Shown here one piece after another: positions 1-18,142 of a stretch of 23,804 nucleotides of DNA. The DNA comes from a virus. Position 1 is the first letter of the stretch; each line of letters begins with the position of its first letter. Under the pieces are notes generated by a model. The model saw only the letters and a program-made list of their open reading frames with translations. It searched no databases and was not told the DNA's origin. Where the stretch lies: positions 1-23,804 of IMG/VR virus record IMGVR_UViG_3300036770_002204. One strand, written 5' to 3'. The position numbers and the translations under genes are program-made.

Positions 1-2568
1 AGTAAGACCAATGTCAATAACTTGATCAATGGTAATGTCAGTGCTAACCTAGACACTGTTGGTAATTTGGCTGTTCCTGGATCCATTATTCCCAAGACTG
101 CTGGAGTATCAGCATTGGGCAGTGCCAGCCGTAGATGGGCAGGTATTTACTTAGATACCACAGCATTCTTTAATGATGTTCGTGTCACTGTTAACACCGG
201 TGGTGTACGAGTGACATCGGTCAGTAATGTCAGTCTGCCTTACTTTGGTAATGTGGTCTACACAGATGGTAGTGTACAAACCACAGCGTTTTTAACATCG
301 TTTATTACCAATGAAGCCAACTTGCGTATCAATGCAGTAGCAAATCTACAAAGTCAAATTGATTTTATTAAAAACAATACTGATCCTGCTGCCATTGATA
401 GTTTAACTGAGCTATTGGCTAACTTCAATAGTGTGTCAACCACAATCAGTACTGTGGCAAACACACTGATCCAAACAGAAACCACTAGAGCCAGTGCAGC
501 GGAAACTGCGCTACAAGCCAACATCACTGCTGAGACTGCTCGTGCTGTGGCAGCTGAACTGTCATTACAGGCCAACATTTTAGCAGAATCACAGACTCGT
601 GCTAATTCGGTGGCTAATCTACAAGGTCAGATCAACAGCATTTTGAACAATGTTGACGCATCAGCACTAGACAGTTTGAGTGAAGTAGTTGCTTTTGTGA
701 CATCAGCTAACATTGCTAGCTTTAACACGTTGGCCAATGGTATCAACACCGAAGCCAATTTGCGTTTAGCTGCTGATCAAGCACTACAAGCCAACATCAC
801 TGCTGAATCCGAAACCAGAGCCAATGCGGTCACTGCTATCAATGCTAACATTACTACATTATTCAACAGCATAGCCACTAATACCACTGCCAACTTGGTA
901 AATGGTAGTTTTGTTGCTTCATTAAACAGCACAGGTAATCTAGTTGTACCAGGGCATGTGATTCCTAGCACAACACTAGCACAAGATTTAGGTACACCAA
1001 CTCAGCAATGGCGTAGTTTATATGTCAGTGCCAACACCATTTACCTGGGCAATACCGGGTTTAGTGTAAGCCAGACTGGTACAATCAGTGTGGTTGGTGG
1101 TATCGAATACGGTGAAAACACTGGTGTACCTGCAACCTGCGACTGGACCGGGAATGTAGTGACCTTGGCTAACTTTGCTGCCAATGCCAACGGTGCTGCA
1201 CTAAAGGATATACTAAGCAAATTAACTGGTGATGAGCAGTTGATTATAACTGCACCGTTTAATCGAACATTAACCATAACCAGTAAACCAGTATACCAGA
1301 ATGCACCATATGCTGATTCATATGTGTTTACGGTAAATGAATCAAGACCCAATGGTGCAGTGACATATCAAGGCACAGGGTATACATATCAGTTCTTCTT
1401 CCTGTTCAAGATAGCTATACAGCCTAAGGCCAATGTCAGTTATATCACTAACTTTGGAAAAACACTAAGTGTCACTGATACTGGTAATGTAGTTGTGCCC
1501 ACTGGTGGTGGTATTTTATACACCGATGGTACTTTACAGACCACTGCCTTTACTTTGAGTTATATCAACACATTGAACAGCAATATTGCCAATGTTCAAA
1601 CACAGTTGACCGCAGTAAATACAGCCTTACAGGGTGTTGATACTGGATTACTGGCCAATGTATCCACATTGTTTAGTAATGCTGCAAGCCAACAGACCAG
1701 TATTGATTCCTTGTTGGCCAATGCAATAACTCAACAAAGCACAATTGATACGCTGTTGGCTAATGCTGTAAGCCAACAAACTTCAGTTGACAGCTTGTTA
1801 GCCAATGCAATAACTCAACAAACCACAATTGACACACTATTAGCCAATGCAATAACTCAGCAAACCAGTGTAGATAGTTTGATTGCCAATGCTGCTAGCC
1901 AACATGACAACATAACCAGTTTGCTGGCTAATACAGTAAGTCAACAAACCACTATTGATAGTTTGAGTGCCAATGCTATTGCTCAACAAACCACGATTGA
2001 TAGTTTGAGTGCCAATGTTGTAAGCCACCAAACCACTATTGATAGTTTGAGTGCCAATGCAATCGCTCAACAAACCACAATTGACAGTTTAAGTGCCAAT
2101 GCTATTGCTCAACAAACCACGATTGATAGTTTGAGTGCTAACACTGTCTCGCAACAAACCACTATTGATAGTTTGAGTGCCAATGCTATTGCTCAACAAA
2201 CCACAATTAACAGTTTGAGTGCCAATGTTGCGGCCAATCAAGTCACACTAACCACGCTGACTTCATACTACGAATCAAGTTTTGAAATTAAGACAGCTAA
2301 TTTTGAAGCCTTGGCAAATCGTAGATATGGAGTCAGTACCGCGTCTGGGGCAGTTACTGCCAACTTACCAGCCGCACCAACAGCTGGAGCAGCAATATTT
2401 TTTGCTGATGCTGGTGGACAGTATGCTGTAAATCCATTTACTATATCTGGAAATGGAGCCACTATCACTGATAGCACCAATTCAGCAGCTAGCACATTGG
2501 TAATCAATACCAATGGTGATAGTGTTGGATTATTTTATACAGGAAGTACCTGGAGACTATACGAATGA
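1..2568 (+). CDS. Tail fibre protein with coiled-coil repeats (5' end outside window)
   Basis: The reading frame is open from base 1, so the gene starts upstream; about 855 residues are visible. It is a modular, Asn/Thr/Ala-rich fibre. The module G-N-L-x-V-P-G ... LG ... W ... LY occurs twice (about 60-200 and 930-1060) and the Y-T-D-G-x-x-Q-T-T-A-F motif occurs twice (about 260-290 and 1520-1550), a pattern common in fibres of aquatic T4-like phages. Stretches of ANITAE-type repeats (about 480-850) and thirteen 14-residue repeats (1681-2226) look like trimeric coiled coil. The last ~85 residues form a globular tip-like domain ending in W-R-L-Y-E. The likely role is host receptor binding at the virion surface. 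It overlaps the next gene by 4 bases (ATGA), so translation is probably coupled. Family placement is by pattern; exact fibre identity (proximal or distal) is unknown. Confidence 0.85.
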   Translation, partial: SKTNVNNLINGNVSANLDTVGNLAVPGSIIPKTAGVSALGSASRRWAGIYLDTTAFFNDVRVTVNTGGVRVTSVSNVSLPYFGNVVYTDGSVQTTAFLTSFITNEANLRINAVANLQSQIDFIKNNTDPAAIDSLTELLANFNSVSTTISTVANTLIQTETTRASAAETALQANITAETARAVAAELSLQANILAESQTRANSVANLQGQINSILNNVDASALDSLSEVVAFVTSANIASFNTLANGINTEANLRLAADQALQANITAESETRANAVTAINANITTLFNSIATNTTANLVNGSFVASLNSTGNLVVPGHVIPSTTLAQDLGTPTQQWRSLYVSANTIYLGNTGFSVSQTGTISVVGGIEYGENTGVPATCDWTGNVVTLANFAANANGAALKDILSKLTGDEQLIITAPFNRTLTITSKPVYQNAPYADSYVFTVNESRPNGAVTYQGTGYTYQFFFLFKIAIQPKANVSYITNFGKTLSVTDTGNVVVPTGGGILYTDGTLQTTAFTLSYINTLNSNIANVQTQLTAVNTALQGVDTGLLANVSTLFSNAASQQTSIDSLLANAITQQSTIDTLLANAVSQQTSVDSLLANAITQQTTIDTLLANAITQQTSVDSLIANAASQHDNITSLLANTVSQQTTIDSLSANAIAQQTTIDSLSANVVSHQTTIDSLSANAIAQQTTIDSLSANAIAQQTTIDSLSANTVSQQTTIDSLSANAIAQQTTINSLSANVAANQVTLTTLTSYYESSFEIKTANFEALANRRYGVSTASGAVTANLPAAPTAGAAIFFADAGGQYAVNPFTISGNGATITDSTNSAASTLVINTNGDSVGLFYTGSTWRLYE
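1681..2226 (+). repeat. Thirteen tandem 42-bp repeats inside the fibre gene
   Basis: The unit encodes 14 residues of the form A-I-x-Q-Q-T-T-I-D-S-L-S-A-N. Thirteen in-frame copies are contiguous, with a degenerate fourteenth after them. The 14-residue period is two heptads with I/V and L at hydrophobic spacing, which fits a trimeric coiled-coil shaft. Copies 1-6 end mostly in LLAN and copies 7-13 in LSAN, so the later copies look like a more recent expansion. Repeats 8, 10 and 11 encode identical peptides. Confidence 0.93.
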
Positions 2569-3242
2569 GCGTGATCGATAATCCGGGGTCAGTGGCCCCG
2601 CCTGCCCCTGATCTTGAACCTACACTGATACTGTCGGAATTTAAAAATCGGCATCGTATTAAAGGCAATGGCCCTGCCAGTGCTGGTGCCACTGGTGCTA
2701 CTGGTGTAGCGGGAACAGGTATTGTTAATACCACAGTGGAACATACCATAATACTAGGTTCCACACACAATCAACCAGTGACCGGCACACGGACCATACA
2801 AAGGCTGGAATGTCAGCGTGTGGGAGATAAAGCCAGGATTACTTACAAATTGGGTTATGCTGGTGGTCAAGCTGGTACTGGTGGATATCTTTTAACCTTG
2901 CCCACTGGCTTAGCGTTCAATACTGATTATCATCCTTTGCATACTGGTGACCTATGGGTCGGTGACGTACAAAATATGGCCAAGTACTTTATTCCTGCTG
3001 TTGGTGGAATAGCCATGCCCGGTCATTGGTCTAACCAGATCATGGTTGTTCCCTACGATGCTACCAGATTTAGGTTAGCATTAACCAACAACAACAGTCA
3101 AACTACCTATCAGGTTTGGCACAATGGTTGGTATGCTGCTAGTTCGAACACCAGTCTAAACATTCAATTTGAAATTTGGCCCGCAACTGCTCCAGCAGCA
3201 GCACCTCCGAGAATGTTAGGTGCTATGAGACCCCCCGGTTAA
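2565..3242 (+). CDS. Small virion/tail-fibre protein with short collagen-like segment
   Basis: 225 residues. The Pro-rich N-terminus (PAPDLEPT) is followed by a Gly-x-y run (about residues 36-52: GPAS, GATGATG), typical of short collagen-like stalks in phage fibres. The remainder is a Gly/Trp/Tyr-rich, beta-strand-like domain with W-H-N-G-W near the C-terminus, ending in a Pro/Ala tail. The start ATG overlaps the stop of the upstream fibre gene (ATGA), so the two are probably co-translated; it may be a fibre tip, adhesin or fibre-attachment protein. No enzyme motif is seen. Virion role is inferred from context and collagen-like sequence. Confidence 0.65.
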   Translation: MSVIDNPGSVAPPAPDLEPTLILSEFKNRHRIKGNGPASAGATGATGVAGTGIVNTTVEHTIILGSTHNQPVTGTRTIQRLECQRVGDKARITYKLGYAGGQAGTGGYLLTLPTGLAFNTDYHPLHTGDLWVGDVQNMAKYFIPAVGGIAMPGHWSNQIMVVPYDATRFRLALTNNNSQTTYQVWHNGWYAASSNTSLNIQFEIWPATAPAAAPPRMLGAMRPPG

Positions 3243-3251
3243 TCTAAAATC

Positions 3252-3280
3252 TTGCATTCTTAACAGTATTCATATATACT
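3252..3280 (+). promoter_or_regulatory. Sigma70-type promoter upstream of primase gene
   Basis: -35 TTGCAT (3252-3257), 17-base spacer, -10 TATACT (3275-3280). The expected start of transcription, about 7 bases after the -10, falls at or next to the ATG at 3288. No Shine-Dalgarno sequence precedes that ATG. Confidence 0.7.
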
Positions 3281-3290
3281 GTTAAGAATG
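3255..3290. promoter_or_regulatory. Perfect 15-bp inverted repeat covering promoter and start codon
   Basis: Left arm CATTCTTAACAGTAT (3255-3269), 6-base centre, right arm ATACTGTTAAGAATG (3276-3290). The right arm contains most of the -10 box and ends with the primase ATG; the left arm contains part of the -35. It could be an operator for a dimeric repressor. No T-tract follows, so it is not a standard terminator. Confidence 0.8.
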
Positions 3291-4265
3291 TTCTCCTCGG
3301 TTTCTGATACTCTGACTCAATTACTGCCTGCACGACGTAGGCGTAGTGCTAGCGGCTGGATTAGTTTTAATGCTGTATGTTGCCAACATCGTGGCGAACG
3401 AGCCGACACAAGAGGTCGTGGTGGTGTTATAAGCACCAGTGACGGTGCTATCACCTATCATTGTTTTAATTGCAATTTTAAAACTGGCTATAGACCTGGG
3501 AATTATCTAGGTTATCGTTTTCGAAGATTACTGATTTGGTTAGGTGCAGATGAAGCCACCGTAAATAGATTAGTAATCGAAGCAGTACGTATCAGAGACT
3601 ACACCGGCGAATCTGACAAAACAGTAGATCAAGAGCCCATTGATTTTAAACCCAGGGCCTTGCCCGACGATGTAGAATTAGTCGACAGCGATCCTCGTGC
3701 TTTAGAGTATTGTCAACAGCGACACATCAATCTGGATCGTTATCCACTGTTGGTCAGTAAAAAAACAGACTATAATTTAAATAGACGTGTGATCATACCA
3801 TTTACTTGGAACAACCAGTTGATAGGTTATAGTGCTCGGGCATGGGATCCAATGATCAAACCGCGCTATCACAGTCAGTACGAACCAAATTATGTTTTTA
3901 ATTTGGATCAACAACCCGGATCAGCTGAATTTGTGATTGTCTGTGAAGGTCCATTTGATGCAATGAGCATAGATGGTTGTGCTATACTCAGCAATGAGTG
4001 CAGTGAACGTCAAGCAGATATCATTGATACCTTAAACAGAGAAGTAATTTTAGTTCCAGATGCAGATCGCGCCGGGCAACAATTGGTAGACTCTGCTATT
4101 AAATTTGGTTGGTCGGTGAGTTTTCCAATTTGGCATGAAACCTGTAAAGACATCAATGATGCTGTGGTAAAGTATGGTCAATTGTTTGTATTGAAAACCA
4201 TTTTAGCAGCTAAAGAAACCAGTAAACTAAAGATCGAACTTAAACGTAGGTGGTTATATAACTAG
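3288..4265 (+). CDS. 61: DNA primase, T4 gp61-like
   Basis: 325 residues, close to the size of T4 gp61. It would make short RNA primers for lagging-strand synthesis together with the helicase encoded next door. An N-terminal zinc site is visible as C31-x2-H34 and C59-x2-C62. A TOPRIM-type catalytic core follows: VCEGPFDA with E219 and VPDADRAG with D257 and D259, which would bind metal. The gene stops one base before the helicase ATG, matching the primosome pairing in T4-like phages. The start at 3288 is chosen because the promoter -10 ends 7 bases upstream and no upstream in-frame start lies outside the promoter; no Shine-Dalgarno is present, suggesting leaderless translation. Confidence 0.88.
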   Translation: MFSSVSDTLTQLLPARRRRSASGWISFNAVCCQHRGERADTRGRGGVISTSDGAITYHCFNCNFKTGYRPGNYLGYRFRRLLIWLGADEATVNRLVIEAVRIRDYTGESDKTVDQEPIDFKPRALPDDVELVDSDPRALEYCQQRHINLDRYPLLVSKKTDYNLNRRVIIPFTWNNQLIGYSARAWDPMIKPRYHSQYEPNYVFNLDQQPGSAEFVIVCEGPFDAMSIDGCAILSNECSERQADIIDTLNREVILVPDADRAGQQLVDSAIKFGWSVSFPIWHETCKDINDAVVKYGQLFVLKTILAAKETSKLKIELKRRWLYN

Positions 4266-5666: not shown

Positions 5667-5674
5667 CATAAATA
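5667..5674 (+). promoter_or_regulatory. T4-late-type promoter box CATAAATA
   Basis: CATAAATA differs from the T4 late consensus TATAAATA at one base. It lies 20 bases before a TTG start that has a strong GGGAGG ribosome site, and so could drive the 5694-8542 cluster. Confidence 0.6.
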
Positions 5675-5693: not shown

Positions 5694-5942
5694 TTGCAAA
5701 AACGTACAAGAAGTTTATTGGCAGAATTAGACAGCTTAGGTCTACGTAAAGATAGAGAAAGTTTTGTTGAAACTCGTGCTGCCAATGTTATTCAAGGCGC
5801 TATAAATCTGTTGCACTTTATCAAAGAAAACTATGATAAAGATACTGCCAGTGAATTAGAGCGACGTTTACTCAACAGCATACGCAGCGGCGATACTTCC
5901 AAGTTTACTCGTGGAATAAGAAAGATTAAAGATGAAAGCTAA
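5694..5942 (+). CDS. Small helical phage protein, function unknown
   Basis: 82 residues, highly charged and predicted mostly helical. The TTG start is supported by GGGAGG at 5682-5687, with 6 bases between it and the start codon; no ATG is available in frame nearby. The middle (NVIQGAINLLHFIKENY) reads as an amphipathic helix and the C-terminus is Lys/Arg-rich. No signal peptide, membrane segment or catalytic motif is seen. It overlaps the next gene by 11 bases and is the first gene after a late-type box, which points to late expression with the head-associated cluster. Function is not recognised. Confidence 0.7.
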   Translation: MQKRTRSLLAELDSLGLRKDRESFVETRAANVIQGAINLLHFIKENYDKDTASELERRLLNSIRSGDTSKFTRGIRKIKDES

Positions 5943-6684
5943 TGAGATAATTCAGGAATCCCTAGTCGACGAAGGTCCATTGGATTATATGCGTCAAGGC
6001 TGGCGTCGACTCAAACATGCTTATCGTGGCGCACGAAATCAAGTCTATGGCAGTCAAATTTTTGATAGGCTACGTGACGAATGGAGAGAATATGCTGCCC
6101 AAGTTGATGATGAGATAGCCCCGGGCCAACGTATCAATTGGAGTATAATTTTACAGAAATGGGCCGACAGTCAATTCAGTAGTGTTGAAAGCAGAATACC
6201 TGTACCTAAGCTGTCTGGTCCTGGGCTAGGTATACTCAACGTAAACACCAACGCCATCATTGATAGGTATATTTGGAATCGCACATTTGAATACATTAAC
6301 AACCAACAACAACCAGCCAAAGCCACAGTGCCACCAGAAGCACCGGCACCCGAGCGCCCAGCGGCCAAGACTGCGGCTGCACCAGCCGAGCCTGACATTG
6401 TGCCACAAGACAGTGCTGGACCTAGTAGGATGGTCAGTGTGCATCCATACATGGGCGGGTCGTATGCCTACAACGTAATCAACAACCAATGGATCAATAA
6501 TCGTACCAACAAGGTAATCACTGATCCTTACATGATTAAACAGTTAAACATATCCTATAACAAAGCCAATCAGCGTCAAACACCCTATAACATGACGCCA
6601 GCAGATAAGTTTGCTCGCAATCGTGACCTACTTCAACGTCAAGCAGCTCAACGTGCTCGCAGTGAATTAGGAGTCACACAATGA
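5932..6684 (+). CDS. Conserved phage protein with capsid-targeting-like N-terminus
   Basis: 250 residues. The start, M-K-A-N-E-I-I-Q-E-S, contains I-x-E near residue 9, the form of site cut by the T4 prohead protease gp21. Residues 15-120 are Arg/Trp/Tyr-rich and helical (W-R-R-L-K-H-A-Y-R). Residues about 125-165 are a Pro/Ala linker, and a Tyr/Asn-rich C-terminal domain follows (YNVINNQWINN). No enzyme motif is visible. It overlaps the previous gene by 11 bases and the next by 4 (ATGA). A head-internal protein is a reasonable inference from the N-terminus and neighbours, but is not shown. Confidence 0.65.
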   Translation: MKANEIIQESLVDEGPLDYMRQGWRRLKHAYRGARNQVYGSQIFDRLRDEWREYAAQVDDEIAPGQRINWSIILQKWADSQFSSVESRIPVPKLSGPGLGILNVNTNAIIDRYIWNRTFEYINNQQQPAKATVPPEAPAPERPAAKTAAAPAEPDIVPQDSAGPSRMVSVHPYMGGSYAYNVINNQWINNRTNKVITDPYMIKQLNISYNKANQRQTPYNMTPADKFARNRDLLQRQAAQRARSELGVTQ

Positions 6685-7466
6685 ATATCATTCGTGAAGG
6701 CGGCAATGCTATCGCTGACAGCAATCCTGTGTTGAAAGCTGATATAAAAGGTGTGGTCAAGCAGGCCAAAGCCTATTTGCCTAAACCAGTGGCTCGTGGT
6801 CTACAAATAGATATTGGCAGTGCTGGATACAAAGTACAGTCGGGAGACATTGACTTGTTTGTTGAAGCACAGGACGTGGTTGATTTTTTCCAAACTGCAC
6901 AGGCTAAAGATCCAGTCAAAGACGCCAAGCAACTATTAAAAAAGCACTTTGAGCAGCAAGGTTTACCGAGCGTGGTCAGTGGACGTAATGTACACATAGG
7001 TGTACCTTATACCACTGCTGATGGAAAACCAGGTCTGGCTCAAGTTGATGTCATGGTCATACATGATGCTGCTGTAGTAGCACCTTGGCATCAACATGGT
7101 CCTCGTGGTGCCTATGATGACCCTGACTTCAAAGGCAGTGAATTGTTTATCTTGCTAAACAGTTTGGCCAAATTTAAAAATTTAAAGTTTGATGCGTTTG
7201 GTGCAAACTTAATGAATCGTGATACCAATCAAGTAGTGGGTCGTACCAGAAAACAGGTTGCTAAAATATTATTAAATCCACAGGCCAAGGAAAAAGATCT
7301 TGACAGTGTAAAGAGTATTATGGCAGCACTGGCCAATGACCCTGACCGCGAAGGCAAGCTGGCACAGGCCAGGCAGGATGCTGCTCGTGGTACATTACGA
7401 TTACCTGAAACCGCTTACGTAGGTACGCCGGCTTGGTTCAGGTCTGTAGCAGGACGATTACAATGA
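6681..7466 (+). CDS. Pol-beta-superfamily nucleotidyltransferase-like protein
   Basis: 261 residues. The fold signature is G-S at 46-47 followed by D-I-D at 56-58 (S-G-D-I-D-L-F), with a third candidate acidic residue at D123 in Q-V-D-V-M. Together these match the GS ... DxD ... D metal-binding pattern of pol-beta-type nucleotidyltransferases, which transfer NMP to nucleic acid, protein or small molecules. The substrate cannot be read from sequence. The first residues, M-N-I-I-R-E-G, include I-x-E followed by Gly, similar to a prohead-protease site. Its stop overlaps the ATG of the ligase-fold gene (ATGA), so the two proteins are probably made together. Confidence 0.7.
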   Translation: MNIIREGGNAIADSNPVLKADIKGVVKQAKAYLPKPVARGLQIDIGSAGYKVQSGDIDLFVEAQDVVDFFQTAQAKDPVKDAKQLLKKHFEQQGLPSVVSGRNVHIGVPYTTADGKPGLAQVDVMVIHDAAVVAPWHQHGPRGAYDDPDFKGSELFILLNSLAKFKNLKFDAFGANLMNRDTNQVVGRTRKQVAKILLNPQAKEKDLDSVKSIMAALANDPDREGKLAQARQDAARGTLRLPETAYVGTPAWFRSVAGRLQ

Positions 7467-8542
7467 AACAGTTTAGAGATTATTTGGTAGAAGCTGCCGA
7501 AGGTCCGCGTATACCGCATCCTGAGGACAGTATATTTGATGGCAGTGCCAGTGCGGCTAACTATGTTCAGGCACTGCAAGGTATTGCTGCCAATCCTACC
7601 AATGTGACCATTAAATGGGATGGCATGATTGCGCTGTACTTTGGCAGAGATGCACAAGGCAATTTTTTTGTAGCAGACAAGTATATGCCTGCCAAAGGTG
7701 TATTTCCTACTAACCCCAAGCAATGGCAAGACTATGATGCTAGCCGTGGTGCTGTACGTGCAGACCTTTATCAAAAAATCAATTTGATTTGGCCTGGCTT
7801 AGAAAAAGCAGTTGGTCAGACCATTGGTACATTCAAAGGCGATCTCATGTTTGTTGGTCCTCTGCAACCTATCAATGACCAATACATTTTTAAACCGGTG
7901 ACTGTGGAATATCGTGTGCCAGTTAACAGTGACCTTGGTCGACTGATTCGCGGGCGACGAGCCCTGATTGTGGTACACACATTTCAAAATGCGCCGTTCA
8001 ATGGTCGAGGACTAACCAGTAATGAAGAAGTAGCTATTATACCACCCAATGCTGGCATTAAGTTTTCAGTTAAGAATCCAGTTAATTTAAGTAATGCTGC
8101 TAGTGCAGCCATAGCCAAATATGGTGCTAGTATAGATAAATTTTTAGCAGGATTGCCTAATGTGGCCAAAGAAGCCATAAAGAAATATGTCATGCATGTA
8201 AAAATAGGTAAGACTACTATGCCTATAAACGAATGGTTGCGAGCCAATGTCAGCAACAAGCAGTATAATTTTTTAGTTGGTGATGACCAAAACGGTTATT
8301 TAAATCAGTACAAGAATGATCTAGCAGCATTATTCAAAACTTGGAACGCAATTAGTGCGTTTAAAGAAAATCTAGCGCAGCAGCTTGAAACCCAAGTAAA
8401 AGGATTCCAGCAGTTGGTCAACGGTCAGCCACAAGGCGAAGGGTTTGTGATTCCCACACGATTTGGGTTGGTGAAATTAGTACAACGAGCTGGTTTCACT
8501 GCTGCTCACTTTGCAGGCTTTAATGCCCAAAAAACACAATAA
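7463..8542 (+). CDS. Ligase-fold (covalent nucleotidyltransferase) protein, DUF6267-like
   Basis: 359 residues from the ATG at 7463; this start overlaps the upstream stop as ATGA and gives a sensible N-terminus, so a longer frame from 7433 is not preferred. Motifs of ATP-dependent DNA/RNA ligases occur in order: motif I KWDG (nucleophile K51), motif III-like FKGDLMF (124-130), motif IV EGFVI (326-330) and motif V LVKLV (336-340). The interval between III and IV, about 195 residues, is longer than in small ligases and holds a helical insert (about 205-320). The N-terminus M-K-Q-F-R-D-Y-L-V-E-A closely resembles the T4 IPIII capsid-targeting peptide (M-K-T-Y-Q-E-F-I-A-E-A). DUF6267 is my recollection of the T4-like phage family with a KWDG motif; activity is unproven. 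The stop precedes a late promoter by 2 bases. Confidence 0.72.
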   Translation: MKQFRDYLVEAAEGPRIPHPEDSIFDGSASAANYVQALQGIAANPTNVTIKWDGMIALYFGRDAQGNFFVADKYMPAKGVFPTNPKQWQDYDASRGAVRADLYQKINLIWPGLEKAVGQTIGTFKGDLMFVGPLQPINDQYIFKPVTVEYRVPVNSDLGRLIRGRRALIVVHTFQNAPFNGRGLTSNEEVAIIPPNAGIKFSVKNPVNLSNAASAAIAKYGASIDKFLAGLPNVAKEAIKKYVMHVKIGKTTMPINEWLRANVSNKQYNFLVGDDQNGYLNQYKNDLAALFKTWNAISAFKENLAQQLETQVKGFQQLVNGQPQGEGFVIPTRFGLVKLVQRAGFTAAHFAGFNAQKTQ

Positions 8543-8544
8543 GG

Positions 8545-8552
8545 TATAAATA
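8545..8552 (+). promoter_or_regulatory. Perfect T4-late promoter box TATAAATA
   Basis: An exact match to the T4 late -10 consensus, 42 bases before the ATG at 8595, with AAAGGA as ribosome site just upstream of that ATG. It would drive a monocistronic late transcript ending at the 8891-8915 terminator. Confidence 0.8.
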
Positions 8553-8594
8553 AAAACATACGCTGCGGCGTAAAAAATTAGAAAGGAAAATAAA

Positions 8595-8873
8595 ATGGCT
8601 GCATTTACAAGAGTAAACGGTGCTGCTGGCGCAATGGAGCAAGTAGGCCGTGAGTTGTTTTTTAAAAATCTTAGCAAAGGTTCAGCAATCACCCAAGCTA
8701 ACATGGAAGCCCTAGTTGCAAAAGTTCAAGAAACCAGTACAATCACAGTGATTGGTACTTTTACAGCTGGTTCAAGCACCAGTGTAAACATGGTTATTGA
8801 AGGTGCTGACATTGGTAATATCACTGCCAGTGACACAGTTTCTTACACAGTAACAAACGTAAGCGGTTTCTAA
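8595..8873 (+). CDS. Small abundant-type virion protein
   Basis: 92 residues, Ala/Gly/Thr/Val-rich with almost no charged residues in the second half. The N-terminal half looks helical (GAMEQVGRELFFKNL) and the C-terminal half alternates beta-forming residues (TITVIGTFTAG, SVNMVIEGADIG, VSYTVTNVSG). It has its own perfect late box, a good ribosome site and its own terminator, which is what is expected of a highly produced structural or head-decoration protein. No family name is recognised; the virion role is inferred. Confidence 0.7.
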   Translation: MAAFTRVNGAAGAMEQVGRELFFKNLSKGSAITQANMEALVAKVQETSTITVIGTFTAGSSTSVNMVIEGADIGNITASDTVSYTVTNVSGF

Positions 8874-8890
8874 TTTAGAACCACTCCACA

Positions 8891-8915
8891 AGCCCTACCT
8901 AGTAGGGCTTTTTTT
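8891..8915 (+). terminator. Rho-independent terminator
   Basis: An 8-bp perfect stem AGCCCTAC / GTAGGGCT (8891-8898 with 8902-8909), a 3-base loop and a run of seven T. It lies 18 bases after the stop of the small virion protein and is the only textbook terminator found in the window. Confidence 0.93.
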
Positions 8916-8934
8916 ATGGCTGTTGGTTTCAGCC

Positions 8935-8942
8935 AGTAAATA
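8935..8942 (+). promoter_or_regulatory. Late-type box AGTAAATA, close to a start codon
   Basis: AGTAAATA keeps the TAAATA core of the late consensus. It follows the terminator by 19 bases and ends 5 bases before the ATG at 8948, so a transcript from it would carry little or no leader. The box is weaker than the one at 8545. Confidence 0.45.
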
Positions 8943-8947
8943 TCTAC

Positions 8948-9349
8948 ATGAAACTAGCAGTATATACTTTGATAGACATAACCAGCACAGGAATACTATC
9001 CAATGATCAAGCAGTGAAAAAAGAACGCAACCAACAGCGTAATTGGGATACAGCACTACAGATTATTAGTTTACGCAACCATTGTAGAATCATAGCTCAT
9101 CCATCAAGTCCACAGACGGTAAACCTTAACTTGCATGATTTTGGTAGCGATTATACTGGAGAACAACGTTGTTGGAAATTTATTTTTGAGACAGAAACGG
9201 ATCAAGACCTAGAAATTCTCAGCAGAGATTTTGACTCTGTGCCAGTGATAATAGGACTCACTGAAACTGTGGTCTTGGATCAACCAGTGTTTGTAGCACA
9301 TGGAACACAGAAAAATATGTATATAAAGATCTTAGGGTACGAAGGTTAA
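8948..9349 (+). CDS. Conserved T4-like phage hypothetical protein
   Basis: 133 residues, beta-rich at the N-terminus (MKLAVYTLIDITSTGI) followed by Q-Q-R-N-W-D-T-A-L-Q-I-I-S-L-R, a combination I recognise as conserved in aquatic T4-like phages without a known function. No membrane segment, signal or catalytic motif. No Shine-Dalgarno precedes the ATG; a late-type box lies 5 bases upstream. The preceding gene ends in a terminator, so this starts a new transcription unit. Confidence 0.7.
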   Translation: MKLAVYTLIDITSTGILSNDQAVKKERNQQRNWDTALQIISLRNHCRIIAHPSSPQTVNLNLHDFGSDYTGEQRCWKFIFETETDQDLEILSRDFDSVPVIIGLTETVVLDQPVFVAHGTQKNMYIKILGYEG

Positions 9350-9352
9350 ATA
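9345..9352 (+). promoter_or_regulatory. Possible late-type box GTTAAATA
   Basis: GTTAAATA overlaps the stop codon of the upstream gene and is 55 bases before the ATG at 9408. A second TTTAAATA lies at 9397-9404, but it sits between the ribosome site and the start codon and is probably chance. Confidence 0.35.
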
Positions 9353-9407
9353 ATCTTAATGGCCAACATTAGTTGAGCCTACCTTTTACCTAAGGATTTA
9401 AATAAAA

Positions 9408-9671
9408 ATGTCGGCATCTGATATTGAAAAGGAAAACTTGGAGGCGCATGTGGAACTTTGTGCAGAGCGTTATAAACAATTAAATCTCAAGTTAGACAGT
9501 CTGGATAATAAAGTAAGTACCATGGAAAGCATGGTATCTGATATCAAAACTGCCTTGGCTGAAGCCAACGACAAACATAATCGACAACTAATTACCATTG
9601 GCACCGGTATTATACTAAGTTTGATAGGCGCCATAATAACTTTATTAGTAGCATTAAACAAAATAAATTAA
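9408..9671 (+). CDS. Coiled-coil protein with C-terminal membrane segment, XhlA-like layout
   Basis: 87 residues. Residues 5-60 are a charged heptad coiled coil (L-N-L-K-L-D-S-L-D-N-K-V). Residues about 62-84 form one hydrophobic helix (ITIGTGIILSLIGAIITLLVAL), with a short K-I-N tail. This N-coiled-coil/C-membrane layout is that of the XhlA family, associated with phage lysis or membrane attachment in other phages. AAGGA at 9392-9396 serves as ribosome site. Here it is about 12 kb from the probable lysis genes, so another membrane role is possible. Confidence 0.7.
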   Translation: MSASDIEKENLEAHVELCAERYKQLNLKLDSLDNKVSTMESMVSDIKTALAEANDKHNRQLITIGTGIILSLIGAIITLLVALNKIN

Positions 9672-10378: not shown

Positions 10379-11074
10379 ATGAATATTTCTGATATCAATC
10401 CTGTAACATCTAGCCGCAAGATGAACAATCTTATGGAAAGCCGTTTTGGATTCACACTAGATTATAACAAATTGACCTATGCCAAAGCTCAAAAGCTCAG
10501 GGACATGGTCAGCGAAAACATCAATCGTATTCGCTTTAACTTCGGCATTCATCAAGCCGAGCGCAATCCCAAGTACATGGAATTGCTTATGGTACGTGAA
10601 GGCCTAACTCGATGGATGAATGAAAACCAACAGCTCATGGAAGGTGAAATGGGTCGCAGCGAAGCTATTCTTGCTGCAAAAGACATGGTAGACAGCATCC
10701 AGGACATGGTTGAAAAAGTCAGCAAGATGCAGGTTGAACAGCTACCTGCACTAATCGACACAATTCGTGATCAAATTGGTATGCAAGAAGCTGAAACATT
10801 CAAAACCAGCATGGGCGACCTACTACGTAATATTGCTGAAAGTCTAGCACAAGCCAGAGAAACTGCTGATACCAGTGCTCGTTCACTGGCCGGCGAAGAA
10901 GGCGGTATTGGTGACATGGGCGGTATGGGAGGCATGGGCGGTATGCAGCCACCTATGGGCGGTGATCTTGGTGCACCTCCACTAGGTGAACCCAGTGACC
11001 TAGACACAGATGAGTTTGGTGCTACTGATGCAGCCGTTGGCGGAACCGAGCCTGTAGGCAGAGAAAAGCGTTAA
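10379..11074 (+). CDS. Prohead core/scaffold-like virion protein
   Basis: 231 residues. Residues 1-165 are nearly all helical and rich in Met, Gln and Glu (ERNPKYMELLMVREGL; AAKDMVDSIQDMVEKVSKM; EQLPALIDTIRDQIGM). This pattern is conserved in T4-like aquatic phages, often without a name. The C-terminal ~55 residues are a Gly/Met-rich tail (GGMGGMGGM) and then an acidic stretch. L-M-E occurs at 18-20 and again near residue 80; L/I-x-E is the prohead-protease site form. AGGA at 10365-10368 is the ribosome site. A scaffold or core role is inferred from composition and neighbours. Confidence 0.55.
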   Translation: MNISDINPVTSSRKMNNLMESRFGFTLDYNKLTYAKAQKLRDMVSENINRIRFNFGIHQAERNPKYMELLMVREGLTRWMNENQQLMEGEMGRSEAILAAKDMVDSIQDMVEKVSKMQVEQLPALIDTIRDQIGMQEAETFKTSMGDLLRNIAESLAQARETADTSARSLAGEEGGIGDMGGMGGMGGMQPPMGGDLGAPPLGEPSDLDTDEFGATDAAVGGTEPVGREKR

Positions 11075-11464
11075 ATGAGAGCCAAAGAGTTCGCGTTTGA
11101 GGGGGCTTTGACTCCCTCAATTGCTAATTTAGTCGACACCTTAGATGACCTGCGTTCACGTACAGATCAGATACGTGTTGACAGTTTAGTTAATCTAGTA
11201 AGAAAAAAGCCCGGCAGTGAGATGTTTAACATAGATATCTTAGCTGATGCTTACAAAGACAATGACACGGTGAAAAACATGATTAAAAACATCACCAATG
11301 ATGACACCGGTGTCAAATATGTATACTTAAAAAATCTCTACGACACCGATGACGAGGAATTATTTCCGGATCAAGCACAGGACAACGACCTGGCTGGTAA
11401 GCCTGGGAGTCCTGAACGTACAGTGTCCACAATGGCAAAACGAGCCAGCAGAAAAAGAACCTAA
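11075..11464 (+). CDS. Small phage protein, possible head-internal protein
   Basis: 129 residues, starting on the base after the upstream stop (TAAATG), so probably translationally coupled. The N-terminus M-R-A-K-E-F-A-F-E-G-A resembles the M-K-x-x-E-F-I-x-E-A/G targeting peptides seen in this window, but has Ala-Phe-Glu instead of L/I-x-E. The middle is acidic and helical, followed by D-T-D-D-E-E-L-F and a basic tail (K-R-A-S-R-K-R-T). A basic tail could bind DNA. Function not recognised. Confidence 0.6.
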   Translation: MRAKEFAFEGALTPSIANLVDTLDDLRSRTDQIRVDSLVNLVRKKPGSEMFNIDILADAYKDNDTVKNMIKNITNDDTGVKYVYLKNLYDTDDEELFPDQAQDNDLAGKPGSPERTVSTMAKRASRKRT

Positions 11465-12220: not shown

Positions 12221-13915
12221 ATGGCCGTACAACAAATAAGTCAAGTACAAGTTAGAAGTGGTCTTTATCAAGATCTAGGACAACTAGCTCGTGGTGAGTT
12301 TGGCTGGGCACTAGATGAACAACGACTATTCATTGGCAATGGCACAGTAGACGAAGGGGCGCCGGCAGCTGGAGTCACAGAAATTGTGACCAAACAATAT
12401 CTTGATAACTATTTCACCGGCGGTGGCGCGGGAGGAACTAGTCCAGGTACCTCTGTGAATAACACTGCTGTTTATGAATTTGCTTATCGATTTAAAGGTA
12501 TTCAAGGTGGGTATGAAGTACTAACAGGTCCAGACATGGCCAATCCCCACAGCCGCACTCTACAGAAGAAATTAGACGATGTAGTTAATGTCTTGGATTT
12601 TGGTGCCCGTGGTGATGGCCTGAACGACGATACAGCAGCCATACAACGTGCCATTGATCAAACCTACAATAAACAAAGCAGTTTCACAGATCCTAAAACA
12701 CGCCGAGTGATCGACTTTCATTCAGGCACTTATTTGTTGTCTGCTGAAATTCGTGTACCGCCATACTGTGTACTACGTGGCACTGGCCGCGACGGAGTAA
12801 TTTTTAGACAGACCAATGATCTCATAGTCAATACTCTACGCACCGCAGACAGTACTGGCTCAGTTGGTGCCAGCATAGCTTCGGCTGCAACACCCCCGGG
12901 ACCAGTGGAAATCAGTAATATAAGATTTGAAGGCAACTTGGTCACAGAAAAGTGTTTGGTGCGAGTTGACAGTGCTGCTGATGTTTTACTAAATCGTTGT
13001 ACATTTTATGGTGCTTTAGTCAGACCCACTGTGTTAGATTCGGCAGCAGCCATACACATAACATCACAGTATAGAACTAGCTCCAAGGTTGTTGTACAAG
13101 ATTGTGTTTTTGATGGCAGTGCCATTGGTATAAGAATTTCCGACACCATTGGTACAAATAATATAACTGTACATAATAGTGTGTTTCAAAATTTAGTTCA
13201 AGCGATACGTGCTACCACCAGTGCAGCCAGTTTAACTTTAAACATGAAAGTCACTGGGTCTCGGTTTAATGACATACAACAAGAAGCCATATATACTGAA
13301 CGTTGTTCAGGTGTAATCAGTTATCTCAATACATATGTAAACGTAGGTACCAACTATTTGACTTTTTCCGCTGTAAATAACAGCACAGATCTACGTCCTG
13401 TAATTAAATTCAGTGGTAATAGTTCTTACAGTTTCGGTGATATGTTTTTGCGCCCTTCGGATAATAAATTTAATATTACAACTGTAGAACACGGTGCAGC
13501 AGGTATTATCAGCATAGATACAGAGAATGGTATCAGACTGGGATCACGATATCAAACCATTGGTAAAAGTTTATTGTTGAATCCAAATTCAACTAATTAC
13601 ATAGTGCTGAATCGTAGATTTTTAGATGGTGTTGTACATTATAGCATAGAACGTAATAATCAAAGACGCAGTGGATTATTAAGCTATACTGTTAACACTA
13701 TAGATAATTCAGTTTGTTTTAGAGAAAGTTATACCGAAACATCCGGTGTAGACATAAAGGTAAATGTAATGTACACAACTCAATCAGGTGGTACTGTAAG
13801 GTATCCCATGCTCAGTGTTCAAGTAAGCGGTGATGTCACACAAAATGCAGTACTCACCTACGATGTAAAATCGCAATCTAACAGAAACGAACTTGGTGCG
13901 GCTTTACTAGCCTAA
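12221..13915 (+). CDS. Tailspike/fibre with pectate-lyase-like beta-helix
   Basis: 564 residues. Residues 8-45 (VQVRSGLYQDLGQLARGEFGWA ... RLFIGNG) match the small N-terminal domain used by many fibres for virion attachment, as in major-tropism-determinant proteins. Residues 120-150 (V-L-D-F-G-A-R-G-D-G, then D-D-T-A-A-I-Q-R-A-I) are the hallmark start of pectate-lyase-3-type right-handed beta-helices. A long Asn/Ser/Val-rich helix and a beta C-terminal domain follow. The protein probably binds or cleaves a host surface polysaccharide; catalytic residues cannot be assigned. GAGG precedes the ATG. Confidence 0.85.
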   Translation: MAVQQISQVQVRSGLYQDLGQLARGEFGWALDEQRLFIGNGTVDEGAPAAGVTEIVTKQYLDNYFTGGGAGGTSPGTSVNNTAVYEFAYRFKGIQGGYEVLTGPDMANPHSRTLQKKLDDVVNVLDFGARGDGLNDDTAAIQRAIDQTYNKQSSFTDPKTRRVIDFHSGTYLLSAEIRVPPYCVLRGTGRDGVIFRQTNDLIVNTLRTADSTGSVGASIASAATPPGPVEISNIRFEGNLVTEKCLVRVDSAADVLLNRCTFYGALVRPTVLDSAAAIHITSQYRTSSKVVVQDCVFDGSAIGIRISDTIGTNNITVHNSVFQNLVQAIRATTSAASLTLNMKVTGSRFNDIQQEAIYTERCSGVISYLNTYVNVGTNYLTFSAVNNSTDLRPVIKFSGNSSYSFGDMFLRPSDNKFNITTVEHGAAGIISIDTENGIRLGSRYQTIGKSLLLNPNSTNYIVLNRRFLDGVVHYSIERNNQRRSGLLSYTVNTIDNSVCFRESYTETSGVDIKVNVMYTTQSGGTVRYPMLSVQVSGDVTQNAVLTYDVKSQSNRNELGAALLA

Positions 13916-13924
13916 GAATTAATT

Positions 13925-14380
13925 ATGTGGAACTCGAAGCCCGAAGAACGTCTTCGTGAATGGCGTGCTTTTCGCAATTCATTAGGCGAATCAGACTTGG
14001 ATTCAGCATTGGCCAAAACTGCACATCTATGGAGTTATGCTCCATATGTCACACATTATTTGGCTGTTGATCTAGTAGAGGAATGGCCTGATCCCTGGGT
14101 TTTAGTGCATGAAAACTATTATTGTGATCTTGCAAAAGCTCTAGGAATGTTGTATACTTTATATCTATGTCCTCATTGGACGGCAGCTATTACGGATTTA
14201 GAAATAAGAATATATAAAAATTTGGATACCAACGACATTGCAAACACTGTATGGGTAAATCGTGGAAAATATATACTTAATTTGACCTTTGACTCTGTAG
14301 TAAATAAGAATCTCGTCGACGAAAAATATAAACTAAAGCACAGGTACACGGTTCAGGATTTGAAGCTGGACCAATATTAG
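13925..14380 (+). CDS. Conserved T4-like phage hypothetical protein
   Basis: 151 residues with a Trp-rich composition: M-W-N-S-K-P-E-E-R-L-R-E-W-R at the start, H-L-W-S-Y-A-P in the middle and E-E-W-P-D-P-W-V-L-V-H-E-N-Y-Y-C near residue 75. These motifs are familiar from aquatic T4-like phages, where the protein has no assigned function. No membrane segment or known catalytic motif. It lies 9 bases after the tailspike stop and 21 before nrdA, with no good ribosome site of its own. Confidence 0.7.
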   Translation: MWNSKPEERLREWRAFRNSLGESDLDSALAKTAHLWSYAPYVTHYLAVDLVEEWPDPWVLVHENYYCDLAKALGMLYTLYLCPHWTAAITDLEIRIYKNLDTNDIANTVWVNRGKYILNLTFDSVVNKNLVDEKYKLKHRYTVQDLKLDQY

Positions 14381-14401
14381 AATAATAAGGAATCAAAAAC
14401 A

Positions 14402-16738
14402 ATGTCCCAGATTTATGTCATCAAGCGCAACGGTCAAAGGGTACCACTGGATATATCAAAAATACAAAGACAAGTTCTACATGCCTGCAGGGGTATTGAC
14501 GGAGTTAGCCCCAGCATGATTGAAATCAAAGCTCAATTAGAATTTCATGACGGTATGACTACTAGTACCATTGATGCGCTGCTTTTACAGGCCATGGTTG
14601 GTCTGATTGATGAAACCGAAAACCCCGAAATCAATAATGTCAATTATCAATATGTAGCAGGACGTCAACGCCTGAGTATGTTGAGAAAAGAAGTATACGG
14701 CGAATACGATCCTCCCCGACTTTACGAGATCGTAAAGAAGAACGTAGATGCCGGAATGTATACCCCGGAATTGCTAGAGTGGTATACCCGAGATGAATGG
14801 AATATTATAGATTTATTTGTTGATCATCACAAAGATGAGAACTACACATATGCAGCCATTGCACAGCTTTGTGAAAAATATCTAGTACAAAATCGTGCTA
14901 CAGGACAAGTTTTCGAAACTCCACAGGTGCGATATGCTGTAGCAGCAGCCACAGCCTTTCATGCTGAGCCTAAAGACAAACGATTGAAATATGTCAAGGA
15001 TTATTATGAGTGCGCTTCAGATGGCCATTTCACTCTTGCCACCCCTGTGCTTGCTGGTCTTGGCACTACTACTAAACAGTTCAGCTCTTGCGTTCTTATC
15101 AGTAGTGATGATACCCTCGATAGCATATTTGCTGCTGGCGAAATGATGGCCAAGTATGCCAGTAAACGAGCTGGCATTGGCTTGGAAATTGGTCGTATTA
15201 GACCACTTGGTTCTCCCATTCGCAATGGAGAAATCAAGCACACAGGCCTAGTACCATTTATGAAGAAGTGGTTCTCGGATCTACGTAGTTGCAGCCAAGG
15301 TGGCATACGCAATGCATCGTGTACAGTGACCTTTCCCATCTGGCATGCACAGTTTGAAGACCTTATTGTGTTAAAGAATAATCAAGGCACAGAAGAAACT
15401 CGTGTTAGGCAAATGGATTATTCGGTGGTGGTCAATGCCATGTTTTGGCGTAGATTCAAAAACAGAGAAAACATAACCCTGTTTGATCCACATGAAGTGC
15501 CAGACCTATACGAAGCCTTCTACAGAAACACTGCGGAATTTGAAAGGTTATATGTAGAATATGAGCACGATGCGACAAAAAAGAAGAAGGTATTACCAGC
15601 GGACGAGATCTTTAAGAATGGCATTCTTAAGGAACGCACTGACACTGGTCGCATCTACCTTGTCTTCATTGACAACGTTCAGCGTCAAGGCCCGTTTGAC
15701 ACAGAGCTTGATCCAGTATATCAATCAAATCTTTGCCAAGAGATATTATTACCCACGAGACCTTTCCAGAGGATTGAAGACGCTGAGGGAAGAATCGCTC
15801 TTTGTACTCTTGGCAGTATAAACTGGGGCAGTTTCCGCAATCCACAAGACATGCGTAAGTGCTGTAGAATACTAGTGCGTAGTCTCAGCAATTTACTTAA
15901 CTATCAAGACTTTCTAAGTATTCAAAGTCAACTGGCTAACCAGGACTTTGAACCACTTGGGGTTGGCATCACTAATCTCGCTTATTGGCATGCTCGTAGA
16001 AGCCTCAAGTACGGCGAACCAACAGCATTGGCAGAAGTCCGGCGTTGGATGGAACATCAGGCCTATTACCTAACTGAATCAAGTGTAGAATTGGCCGAGG
16101 AGCGTGGTGCTTGCAGTAAGTCGGCGCAGACCTATTATGGTCGGGGAGTATTTCCTTGGGAGCGCCGCGCCACTGGGGTTAATGAGCTAACGGATTTCAC
16201 TCCAAGTCTTGACTGGGAACCTCTGCGTACTCGTATGAAAAAGTCAGGCATACGTAATGCCACCTTGATGGCTGTAGCGCCTGTGGAATCTAGTTCTGTA
16301 GTATTAAACTCAACCAACGGCATTGAAATGCCCATGGAATTGATTTCTGTAAAAGAATCAAAAGCAGGTAGTTTTGTTCAGGTTGTACCTGAGTATAAAA
16401 GACTACGTAATCGATATCAACTAATGTGGGATCAACGTGATTGCGTGGATTACTTGAAAACAGCCGCAGTGATAGCAGCATATGTAGACCAAAGTTTGAG
16501 TACCAACACTTTTTACAATCCAGCACACTATGCAGGAAATAAAGTACCTGGAACAACTATCACTAGAAATCTCATGTTGGCACATCGATGGGGATTAAAA
16601 ACCATCTACTATAGCTTGATCAACAAAGTAGGTGCCAAAACTCAACTCAGTAATGTCAGCAGTCAACTAGAACCCACTGTGACCAGTGTTTTAGAAATTG
16701 AAGAAGACCAAGAAAATTGTGAGGCTTGTGTATTATGA
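14402..16738 (+). CDS. nrdA: Class Ia ribonucleotide reductase, large (alpha) subunit
   Basis: 778 residues, full length. It reduces ribonucleoside diphosphates to deoxyribonucleotides for phage DNA synthesis. Residues 1-95 form an ATP-cone (V-I-K-R-N-G-Q-R-V-P) for allosteric activity control. Catalytic residues are visible: C230 (F-S-S-C), N443/C445/E447 (N-L-C-Q-E), C468 (A-L-C-T) and the radical-transfer pair Y736-Y737. The C-terminal shuttle cysteines are C773 and C776, spaced C-x2-C rather than the C-x4-C of E. coli. AAGGA precedes the start. Its TGA overlaps the nrdB ATG, and glutaredoxin follows about 700 bases after nrdB. Confidence 0.96.
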   Translation: MSQIYVIKRNGQRVPLDISKIQRQVLHACRGIDGVSPSMIEIKAQLEFHDGMTTSTIDALLLQAMVGLIDETENPEINNVNYQYVAGRQRLSMLRKEVYGEYDPPRLYEIVKKNVDAGMYTPELLEWYTRDEWNIIDLFVDHHKDENYTYAAIAQLCEKYLVQNRATGQVFETPQVRYAVAAATAFHAEPKDKRLKYVKDYYECASDGHFTLATPVLAGLGTTTKQFSSCVLISSDDTLDSIFAAGEMMAKYASKRAGIGLEIGRIRPLGSPIRNGEIKHTGLVPFMKKWFSDLRSCSQGGIRNASCTVTFPIWHAQFEDLIVLKNNQGTEETRVRQMDYSVVVNAMFWRRFKNRENITLFDPHEVPDLYEAFYRNTAEFERLYVEYEHDATKKKKVLPADEIFKNGILKERTDTGRIYLVFIDNVQRQGPFDTELDPVYQSNLCQEILLPTRPFQRIEDAEGRIALCTLGSINWGSFRNPQDMRKCCRILVRSLSNLLNYQDFLSIQSQLANQDFEPLGVGITNLAYWHARRSLKYGEPTALAEVRRWMEHQAYYLTESSVELAEERGACSKSAQTYYGRGVFPWERRATGVNELTDFTPSLDWEPLRTRMKKSGIRNATLMAVAPVESSSVVLNSTNGIEMPMELISVKESKAGSFVQVVPEYKRLRNRYQLMWDQRDCVDYLKTAAVIAAYVDQSLSTNTFYNPAHYAGNKVPGTTITRNLMLAHRWGLKTIYYSLINKVGAKTQLSNVSSQLEPTVTSVLEIEEDQENCEACVL

Positions 16739-17848: not shown

Positions 17849-18142
17849 ATGGCAAAAATTGATGAGGAACGAATTCTACTTAAAGTAAGTTTGTTAATTC
17901 GTGATGACGGCAACATTTCGGCCGTAAACCTAATAACCGCTAACGTTGTCTCGCAAGTGGAATCCTATGTTGCAACATTATACGATGGACTTGATGCTGT
18001 TATTGTTGAAGCTTATAATGCCACAGATTATTATATTTCAACTACACAACCACCTGCATCAACCACTACTACCGCAGCTCCGACCACTACTACTACAACT
18101 TCAGCGCCTACTACTACTACAACGACCACATCTGGGGTCTAA
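17849..18142 (+). CDS. Small phage protein with Thr-rich tail (paralogue A)
   Basis: 97 residues. Residues 1-65 form a compact alpha/beta-looking domain (I-L-L-K-V-S-L-L-I ... V-V-S-Q-V-E-S-Y-V ... A-V-I-V-E-A). Residues 67-97 are a low-complexity Thr/Pro/Ala/Ser tail. AAGGAG at 17837-17842 is a strong ribosome site overlapping the nrdB stop. The domain resembles the next two small proteins, so the three look like tandem duplicates. Poly-Thr tails occur in some phage virion proteins. Function not recognised. Confidence 0.7.
   Translation: MAKIDEERILLKVSLLIRDDGNISAVNLITANVVSQVESYVATLYDGLDAVIVEAYNATDYYISTTQPPASTTTTAAPTTTTTTSAPTTTTTTTSGV

Follow-up and report, generated by a model that had tools for sequence, protein, structure and literature searches.

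Why should consecutive genes of a phage, two of them coding for predicted enzymes, begin with short peptides that resemble the one targeting the internal proteins of phage T4 to the head? The question is raised by a stretch of 23,804 nucleotides (positions 1 to 23,804 of the IMG/VR virus record IMGVR_UViG_3300036770_002204; hereafter the window, meaning the whole stretch analysed), which is a 23.8-kb fragment of an uncultured T4-superfamily bacterial virus, and in which the genes starting at 5932, 6681 and 7463 and, in a looser form, the gene at 11075 carry such N-termini. The answer that we favour, with a probability of about 0.78, is that several adjacent genes bear a T4-type capsid-targeting sequence (CTS) with a cleavage site for the prohead protease gp21, and that their products would enter the prohead as cargo, be trimmed by gp21 and probably be injected. 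In T4, the first 10 residues of the internal protein IPIII are enough for targeting, residues 4 and 7 serving targeting and residues 8 and 10 processing (PMC9026906); in the T4 record, both IPII and IPIII start with MKTYQEFIAEA. The features on which the argument turns are the following (a slash marks a proposed cut):

5932–6684, + strand: tagged protein of 250 amino acids with a fast-changing body and no family match
5932–5958, + strand: its proposed tag, cut after E9 (MKANEIIQE/S), with tags at the same locus in relatives
6681–7466, + strand: Pol-beta-type nucleotidyltransferase of 261 amino acids, predicted from invariant motifs, an AlphaFold2 (AF2) model and Foldseek
6681–6698, + strand: its proposed tag, cut after E6 (MNIIRE/GGN), with E6, G7 and G8 invariant and the site kept inside a fusion, L025
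7463–8542, + strand: DUF6267 protein of 359 amino acids (PF19782, E 5.9e-28; PHROG 455), a predicted member of the covalent nucleotidyltransferase (ligase/capping) superfamily
7463–7492, + strand: its proposed CTS, cut after E10 (MKQFRDYLVE/A), from conservation and the match to IPIII
7613–7624, + strand: KWDG, ligase motif I with the putative nucleotidylated lysine; K, D and G invariant
11075–11464, + strand: protein with a looser tag (MRAKEFAFE/G), MR-x-x-E-[FI]-x-x-E in most homologues

The N-terminal tags and their conservation

The original prediction held that the ligase-like protein begins almost position for position like IPIII, that the two genes before it have I-x-E within the first ten residues and that the gene at 11075 has a weaker version. 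The frames and N-termini were confirmed (MKQFRDYLVEA, MKANEIIQES and MNIIREGGN, and MRAKEFAFEG for 11075), and the 7463 protein, with F4, Y7, L8, E10 and A11, agrees with IPIII at all four mapped positions (4, 7, 8 and 10). Its open reading frame (ORF) reaches upstream to a TTG at 7433; the start conserved among homologues is the ATG at 7463. The full CTS pattern (hydrophobic or aromatic residues at 4 and 7, I or L at 8, E at 10) is found in this protein and its homologues; the 6681 protein has no more than its L/I-x-E part, and the 5932 and 11075 proteins have an approximation of it. The homologues of the 11075 protein keep the E, with A, V, M or I as the P3 residue.

Within the window, [LI]-x-E lies near the start of 6 of the 30 genes, against 1.9 expected, and a strict form of the tag is present at 2/30 starts versus 1/115 internal methionines (p=0.11). 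The strict tag was found at 10/239 starts versus 6/854 internal methionines in T4 (p=5e-4), and at 15/458 versus 14/1630 in G001, a 321-kb relative (p=4e-4). A looser pattern, used as a positive control, picked out 21 T4 starts, which include those of IPII, IPIII, gp22, gp24, gp68 and Alt. The DNA end protector of T4, gp2 (T4 76061-76885, L094), starts with MAIFQIINES and also fits the tag pattern. Under loose criteria the genome-wide enrichment of [LI]-x-E in G001 was modest (49 versus 31.6 expected), and these were therefore replaced by the stricter tag with its internal-methionine control; simple gene calling mis-set some starts (e.g., that of L035, and an antisense ORF was preferred over the 6681 gene of the window), which adds noise to these counts. 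Because loose matches are common and the strict count of the window is of this size, the window alone is only suggestive, and the homologues decide.

Relatives were fetched from IMG/VR with the ligase-like query (L002-L008), the nucleotidyltransferase query (L009-L043) and the DUF6267 alignment (L097-L176). Among distinct prefixes, [LI]-x-E is kept in 21/21 for the ligase clade, 18/18 for the nucleotidyltransferase and 57/59 for the wider DUF6267 family; when residues were shuffled within prefixes the means were 5.0, 3.2 and 15.3, respectively, a comparison that serves as a scale and not as a p-value, since homologues share kinship. The alignment of homologous N-termini that had been proposed as a check thus shows L/I-x-E to be conserved far beyond chance, most other tag residues being variable. 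The ligase clade has forms such as MKSYNEYLVEA, MKTYIDFLVEA, MKPLTDYLIEA, MTSFIDYLVEA and MKFSFINMLTEA, in which A11 is invariant and L8 and E10 nearly so, and the nucleotidyltransferase homologues have [LI]-x-E-G-G after a prefix of variable length (MNLTEGG, MMYLYEGG, MSNLLKIYEGG). In the wider DUF6267 family, a conserved HLEH comes after the [LI]-x-E, whose E falls at residues 6 to 15. Anchoring the 57 tagged prefixes on this E gave peaks at -6 (F, 39/50), -2 and 0 and an aromatic/hydrophobic tendency at -3, positions that correspond to IPIII residues 4, 8, 10 and 7, respectively; the search pattern itself dictates the peaks at -2 and 0, and that at -6 is independent of it.

G001 encodes an S77 (gp21) protease, as do the complete relatives Melnitz-3, DLP6, HTVC008M and PA5oct (4/4 complete genomes checked). 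In an alignment of gp23, the capsid proteins of all five relatives have L-x-E at or beside the position at which T4 gp23 is cleaved (FLTE/A, after residue 65; PMC5694885); their sites, FLSE/A, LLGE/A, FLGE/I, FLVE/N and QLSE/S, are predicted, that of T4 alone being established. The suggested comparison with the capsid-protein cleavage site could be made for these relatives; the capsid gene of the window itself lies outside the fragment, and gp21 and gp23 are absent from the 23.8 kb because the window is a fragment. Taken together, the mapped positions, the modular tag (see below), the gp21-type protease of relatives and the capsid L-x-E strongly support the reading of the peptides as targeting and cleavage sites. 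Membership of G001 in the known bS21 freshwater clades was rejected, since the capsid genes (811-3773) are far from its bS21 gene (147447).

Gain, loss and fusion of the tag

The tag is modular in its behaviour. The 5932 locus of relatives encodes proteins that have different bodies (179 to 808 amino acids) and the tags MKTNEVITEG, MKINEILTEG, MKVNDIINEG or MRINSILSEN; here L028 and L032 can be aligned over about 34 N-terminal residues only, and L026 and L039 have a common body, which in L026 is separated from the tag by about 175 additional residues. DUF6267 proteins are tagged in HTVC008M, C48C1, Melnitz-3 and DLP6, and tagless in the cyanophages S-PRM1, P-TIM40, S-8S53, P-HM2 and ACG-2014a as well as in L171 and L173; the tagless orthologues begin near the end of the tag, at KN-THLEHLED (MAKNTHLEHLED). 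In Syn9 and ACG-2014a the DUF6267 gene has no tag, and the gene after it codes for a cytidylyltransferase-like protein with one (MKKFSAFLSEA or MKKFSAFLNEA).

Cleavage-type sites are also found inside fused frames. In L025 (G008 13037-14920, - strand) a 5932-type protein and the nucleotidyltransferase share one 627-amino-acid frame that has a single N-terminal tag and an internal DLRE/SRVIRE/GGNAIP (linker DLRESRVIREGGN) with no start codon nearby; this fusion is possibly a cargo polyprotein that would be cut in the head. In L106 and L151, DUF6267 lies behind another domain (MITQSDLNQVEKFADRLF...), and the site is kept internally at about ORF residues 115-130 (FESFLAE/D and FESFLNE/S, respectively). 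An ATG lies a few codons upstream in L151 and a TTG in L106, so that internal starts are possible there. That the site persists at a distance from the N-terminus is in keeping with a protease site; a recent fusion could also leave such a remnant.

In several relatives an extra tagged gene, for a protein of 338-343 amino acids (MKIFEILREGGWDTTLTQNTVLHP), lies between the nucleotidyltransferase and the ligase-like gene (L059:1487-2503 in G001, G009 8494-9525 and G012 2066-3082); Pfam and PHROG searches with it returned no match.

The enzymes, their neighbours and other tagged proteins

The original prediction named the two enzymes as a nucleotidyltransferase and a ligase-fold protein. The first identity, as a Pol-beta-type enzyme, is well supported by motifs and structure comparison: G46 S47, D56, D58 and D123 (the GS, D-x-D and third D) are invariant in 21 homologues, and the leading solved Foldseek matches of the AF2 model are to DNA polymerase lambda (E 2e-6, TM-score of about 0.44). 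The model has a predicted local distance difference test (pLDDT) score of 83.9, with residues 1-7 below 50. A Pfam search with this protein gave no hit, and tblastn against annotated phages gave no match. For the DUF6267 protein, the ligase fold is indicated by invariant motifs only. K51xD53G54, G126D127, E326G327 and K338 are invariant among homologues, so that motifs I (KxDG) and IV (EG) and the motif V lysine are present; the AF2 model scores a pLDDT of 87.4, the tag being of low confidence (disordered), and many of the leading Foldseek matches are ligases and capping enzymes, with a best E of 0.19 that is below significance, for which reason the claim rests on the motifs. Sequence searches of the PDB with both alignments returned nothing useful.

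The surroundings of the tagged genes include the following features:

5667–5674, + strand: late-promoter-like box CATAAATA, fitting NATAAATA, ahead of the operon
5694–5942, + strand: small protein of 82 amino acids opening the operon, TTG start, N-terminus MQKRTRSLLAELDS (PHROG 11854, virion structural protein, E 3.3e-16)
10379–11074, + strand: untagged protein of the same region (PHROG 14154, E 1.2e-11), homologue of EST35_0237 of PA5oct

The genes at 5694, 5932, 6681 and 7463 follow one another in this order and overlap. Upstream lie a primase-like gene (3288) and a gp41-type helicase gene (4267), assigned by PHROG matches; NrdA-like and NrdB-like proteins are encoded at 14402 and 16735, as read from the sequence. 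NATAAATA is the late promoter reported for S-PM2 (PMC2984593), and in every distinct upstream region that was read in relatives, a box fitting it or [ACGT]TAAATA precedes the 5694 homologue by about 20-28 nt. Across the two strands of the window TAAATA shows no enrichment, and only its conserved place ahead of the operon counts; by its sequence, this conserved box may point to late expression together with the head genes. All homologues of the 5694-5942 protein that were read keep an L-x-E near residues 10-12 (LAE, LDE or LTE), within an R-S-[IL]-L-x-E-L found in the first 13 residues of all homologues. This is possibly a further site, though with Leu at P1' and in a wholly conserved N-terminus. 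The 5694, 9675 and 10379 proteins all match PHROGs annotated as virion structural protein.

The 10379 protein matches EST35_0237 of PA5oct with a profile E of 2.7e-19, and the depositors annotate the latter as a structural protein with electrospray ionisation tandem mass spectrometry (ESI-MS/MS) evidence. The PA5oct gene next to it, whose place matches that of 11075, starts with MKIKDILVE/S and is likewise annotated with ESI-MS/MS, its correspondence to 11075 being one of position; a profile search of the PA5oct proteins with the nucleotidyltransferase and ligase families of the window gave no significant homology.

Tagged proteins are also found elsewhere in relatives. Two of those in G001 match PHROG 15752 (T7-type protein kinase, inhibitor of host transcription; L061:6473-7171 and L054:12276-12923) and are candidates for injected kinases of a T4-type jumbo phage. 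A third (L061:7168-8325, MKITDVLDEA) combines a gamma-glutamyl cyclotransferase (GGCT) domain with a GH19 chitinase/endolysin domain, and a LysM protein and a GNAT-like protein are tagged as well, the apparent types being kinases, GNAT proteins and proteins active on peptidoglycan. In HTVC008M, a zeta-toxin-like kinase starts with MIPFILKEG. By their predicted domains, these other tagged proteins look more like early effectors of host takeover than like replication or scaffold proteins.

Other observations concern the rest of the window. An exact TATAAATA box is found at 8545-8552, before a small gene (8595-8873) whose product has a weak head-fibre Pfam match, below the cut-off (E 0.0054). The fibre-like protein at 22-2568 contains consecutive, almost identical repeats of the form QQTTIDSLSANAIA, and the small protein at 17849-18142 ends in a threonine-rich tail, TTTTAAPTTTTTTSAPTTTTTT.

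Proposed route, alternatives and known systems

Late in infection, the 5932 protein, the nucleotidyltransferase, the DUF6267 protein and probably the 11075 protein would bind the prohead core through the hydrophobic residues of their tags; mature proteins (e.g., GGNAIP... and AAEGPRIPHPED...) would arise in the head through cleavage by gp21 behind [LI]-x-E, and these would be ejected along with the DNA into the next cell. Packaging, cutting and ejection are all inferred. Ahead of the synthesis of new phage proteins, the enzyme pair might carry out an early repair or end-modification of nucleic acid, either nicked RNA or the ends of the phage DNA, a role that we regard as possible and would not bet on.

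The same peptides could be genuine core-docking and gp21 sites on structural core or scaffold parts, comparable to gp22, gp24, gp67 and gp68, instead of on injected effectors. The N-termini of T4 gp22 (MLKEQLIAEA) and gp24 (MAKINELLRES) are of this kind, and virion-structural matches surround the tagged genes; this may be true for the 5932 and 11075 proteins, which are without an enzyme domain. As an account of the whole set it is unlikely, because the nucleotidyltransferase and the ligase-like protein keep every catalytic motif residue and because other tagged proteins, e.g., the kinase-like and GNAT ones, are enzymes. Docking to another complex, such as the replisome, would suit enzymes that act on nucleic acid and whose genes lie directly behind the gp61-/gp41-like (primase and helicase) genes, the helicase gene being just upstream in Melnitz-3 and HTVC008M as well. 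However, the tag is also borne by GNAT, GGCT-chitinase and kinase-like proteins elsewhere in G001, the primase and helicase of the window are untagged, and the site at which the capsid proteins are predicted to be cleaved is the same as the conserved L-x-E, all of which leaves this explanation very improbable. An even smaller share of belief goes to a chance likeness of ordinary M-K-rich, amphipathic N-termini, for which the strict count in the window and the frequency of loose matches speak; it is largely refuted by the conservation among homologues, and the modular behaviour of the tag and the site retained inside fusions also argue against it.

Several observations weigh against packaging as prohead cargo. 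Most of the cyanophage DUF6267 orthologues examined are without the tag, so that packaging does not hold throughout the family; the tag of the nucleotidyltransferase is short and lacks the residue 4/7 pattern; and the strict pattern occurs by chance at about 1% of internal methionines, so that one sequence does not suffice to call an individual gene. Neither gp21 nor gp23 is contained in the window or in its nearest relatives, all of which are fragments. The link to the virion is indirect, through the ESI-MS/MS annotations of PA5oct, and since the PA5oct list includes NrdA and NrdB it is not clean proof of an internal location; in addition, the nucleotidyltransferase-like and ligase-like counterparts in PA5oct, matched by order and motifs only, are untagged.

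A wider proposal, to which we give somewhat less than even odds, is that T4-superfamily phages of fresh- and seawater have a general system of injected effectors in common. Many unrelated enzymes would gain and lose a short cleavable tag, among them a nucleotidyltransferase and ligase pair that acts on nucleic acid of the host or the phage immediately on entry, and part of the cargo would be made as polyproteins that gp21 splits in the head. The head contents of T4-type phages other than T4 are little known. If the tag is real, finding the cargo of aquatic phages (DUF6267, Pol-beta nucleotidyltransferase, kinase-like and GNAT proteins) becomes a sequence search, exact mature N-termini are predicted that can be checked by mass spectrometry, and natural, diverse tags become available for loading proteins into phage heads.

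Among known systems, IPI, IPII and IPIII of T4 are alike in having a 10-residue tag with aromatic or hydrophobic residues at 4 and 7, I/L8, E10 and a small residue after it, on unrelated bodies. The T4 proteins are of about 95-194 amino acids, whereas those of the window are predicted enzymes of 260-360 amino acids, and the tag is here more variable in length (6-15 residues) and sometimes internal to a fusion. Alt of T4 differs in enzyme activity and fold from the enzymes of the window. It is an ADP-ribosyltransferase that fits the tag pattern and is packaged in the head, trimmed by gp21 and delivered to the host (PMC9026906); here packaging is proposed. The ejection proteins of phiKZ and SPN3US similarly lose propeptides to a gp21-related protease (PMC5694885), many of them longer than 100 residues and cut at A/S-x-E, in contrast to L/I-x-E here. 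The polyvalent proteins of phages and conjugative elements, early effectors thought to travel with the DNA, include Pol-beta nucleotidyltransferases and kinases (PMC5512222); they are large and multidomain, whereas here each enzyme is a separate tagged protein. DUF6267 (PHROG 455), the family to which the ligase-like protein belongs, has no described function and was not named in the literature searched; nor did we find there the cargo families, the gain and loss of the tag between orthologues or the fusions with internal sites, which leaves unproven that they are unpublished. Since the mechanism is that of the T4 internal proteins and T4-like phages have already been suggested to load varied proteins through the CTS (PMC9026906), the system is of a known kind: the tag of T4 is known, and the cargo families appear to be new.

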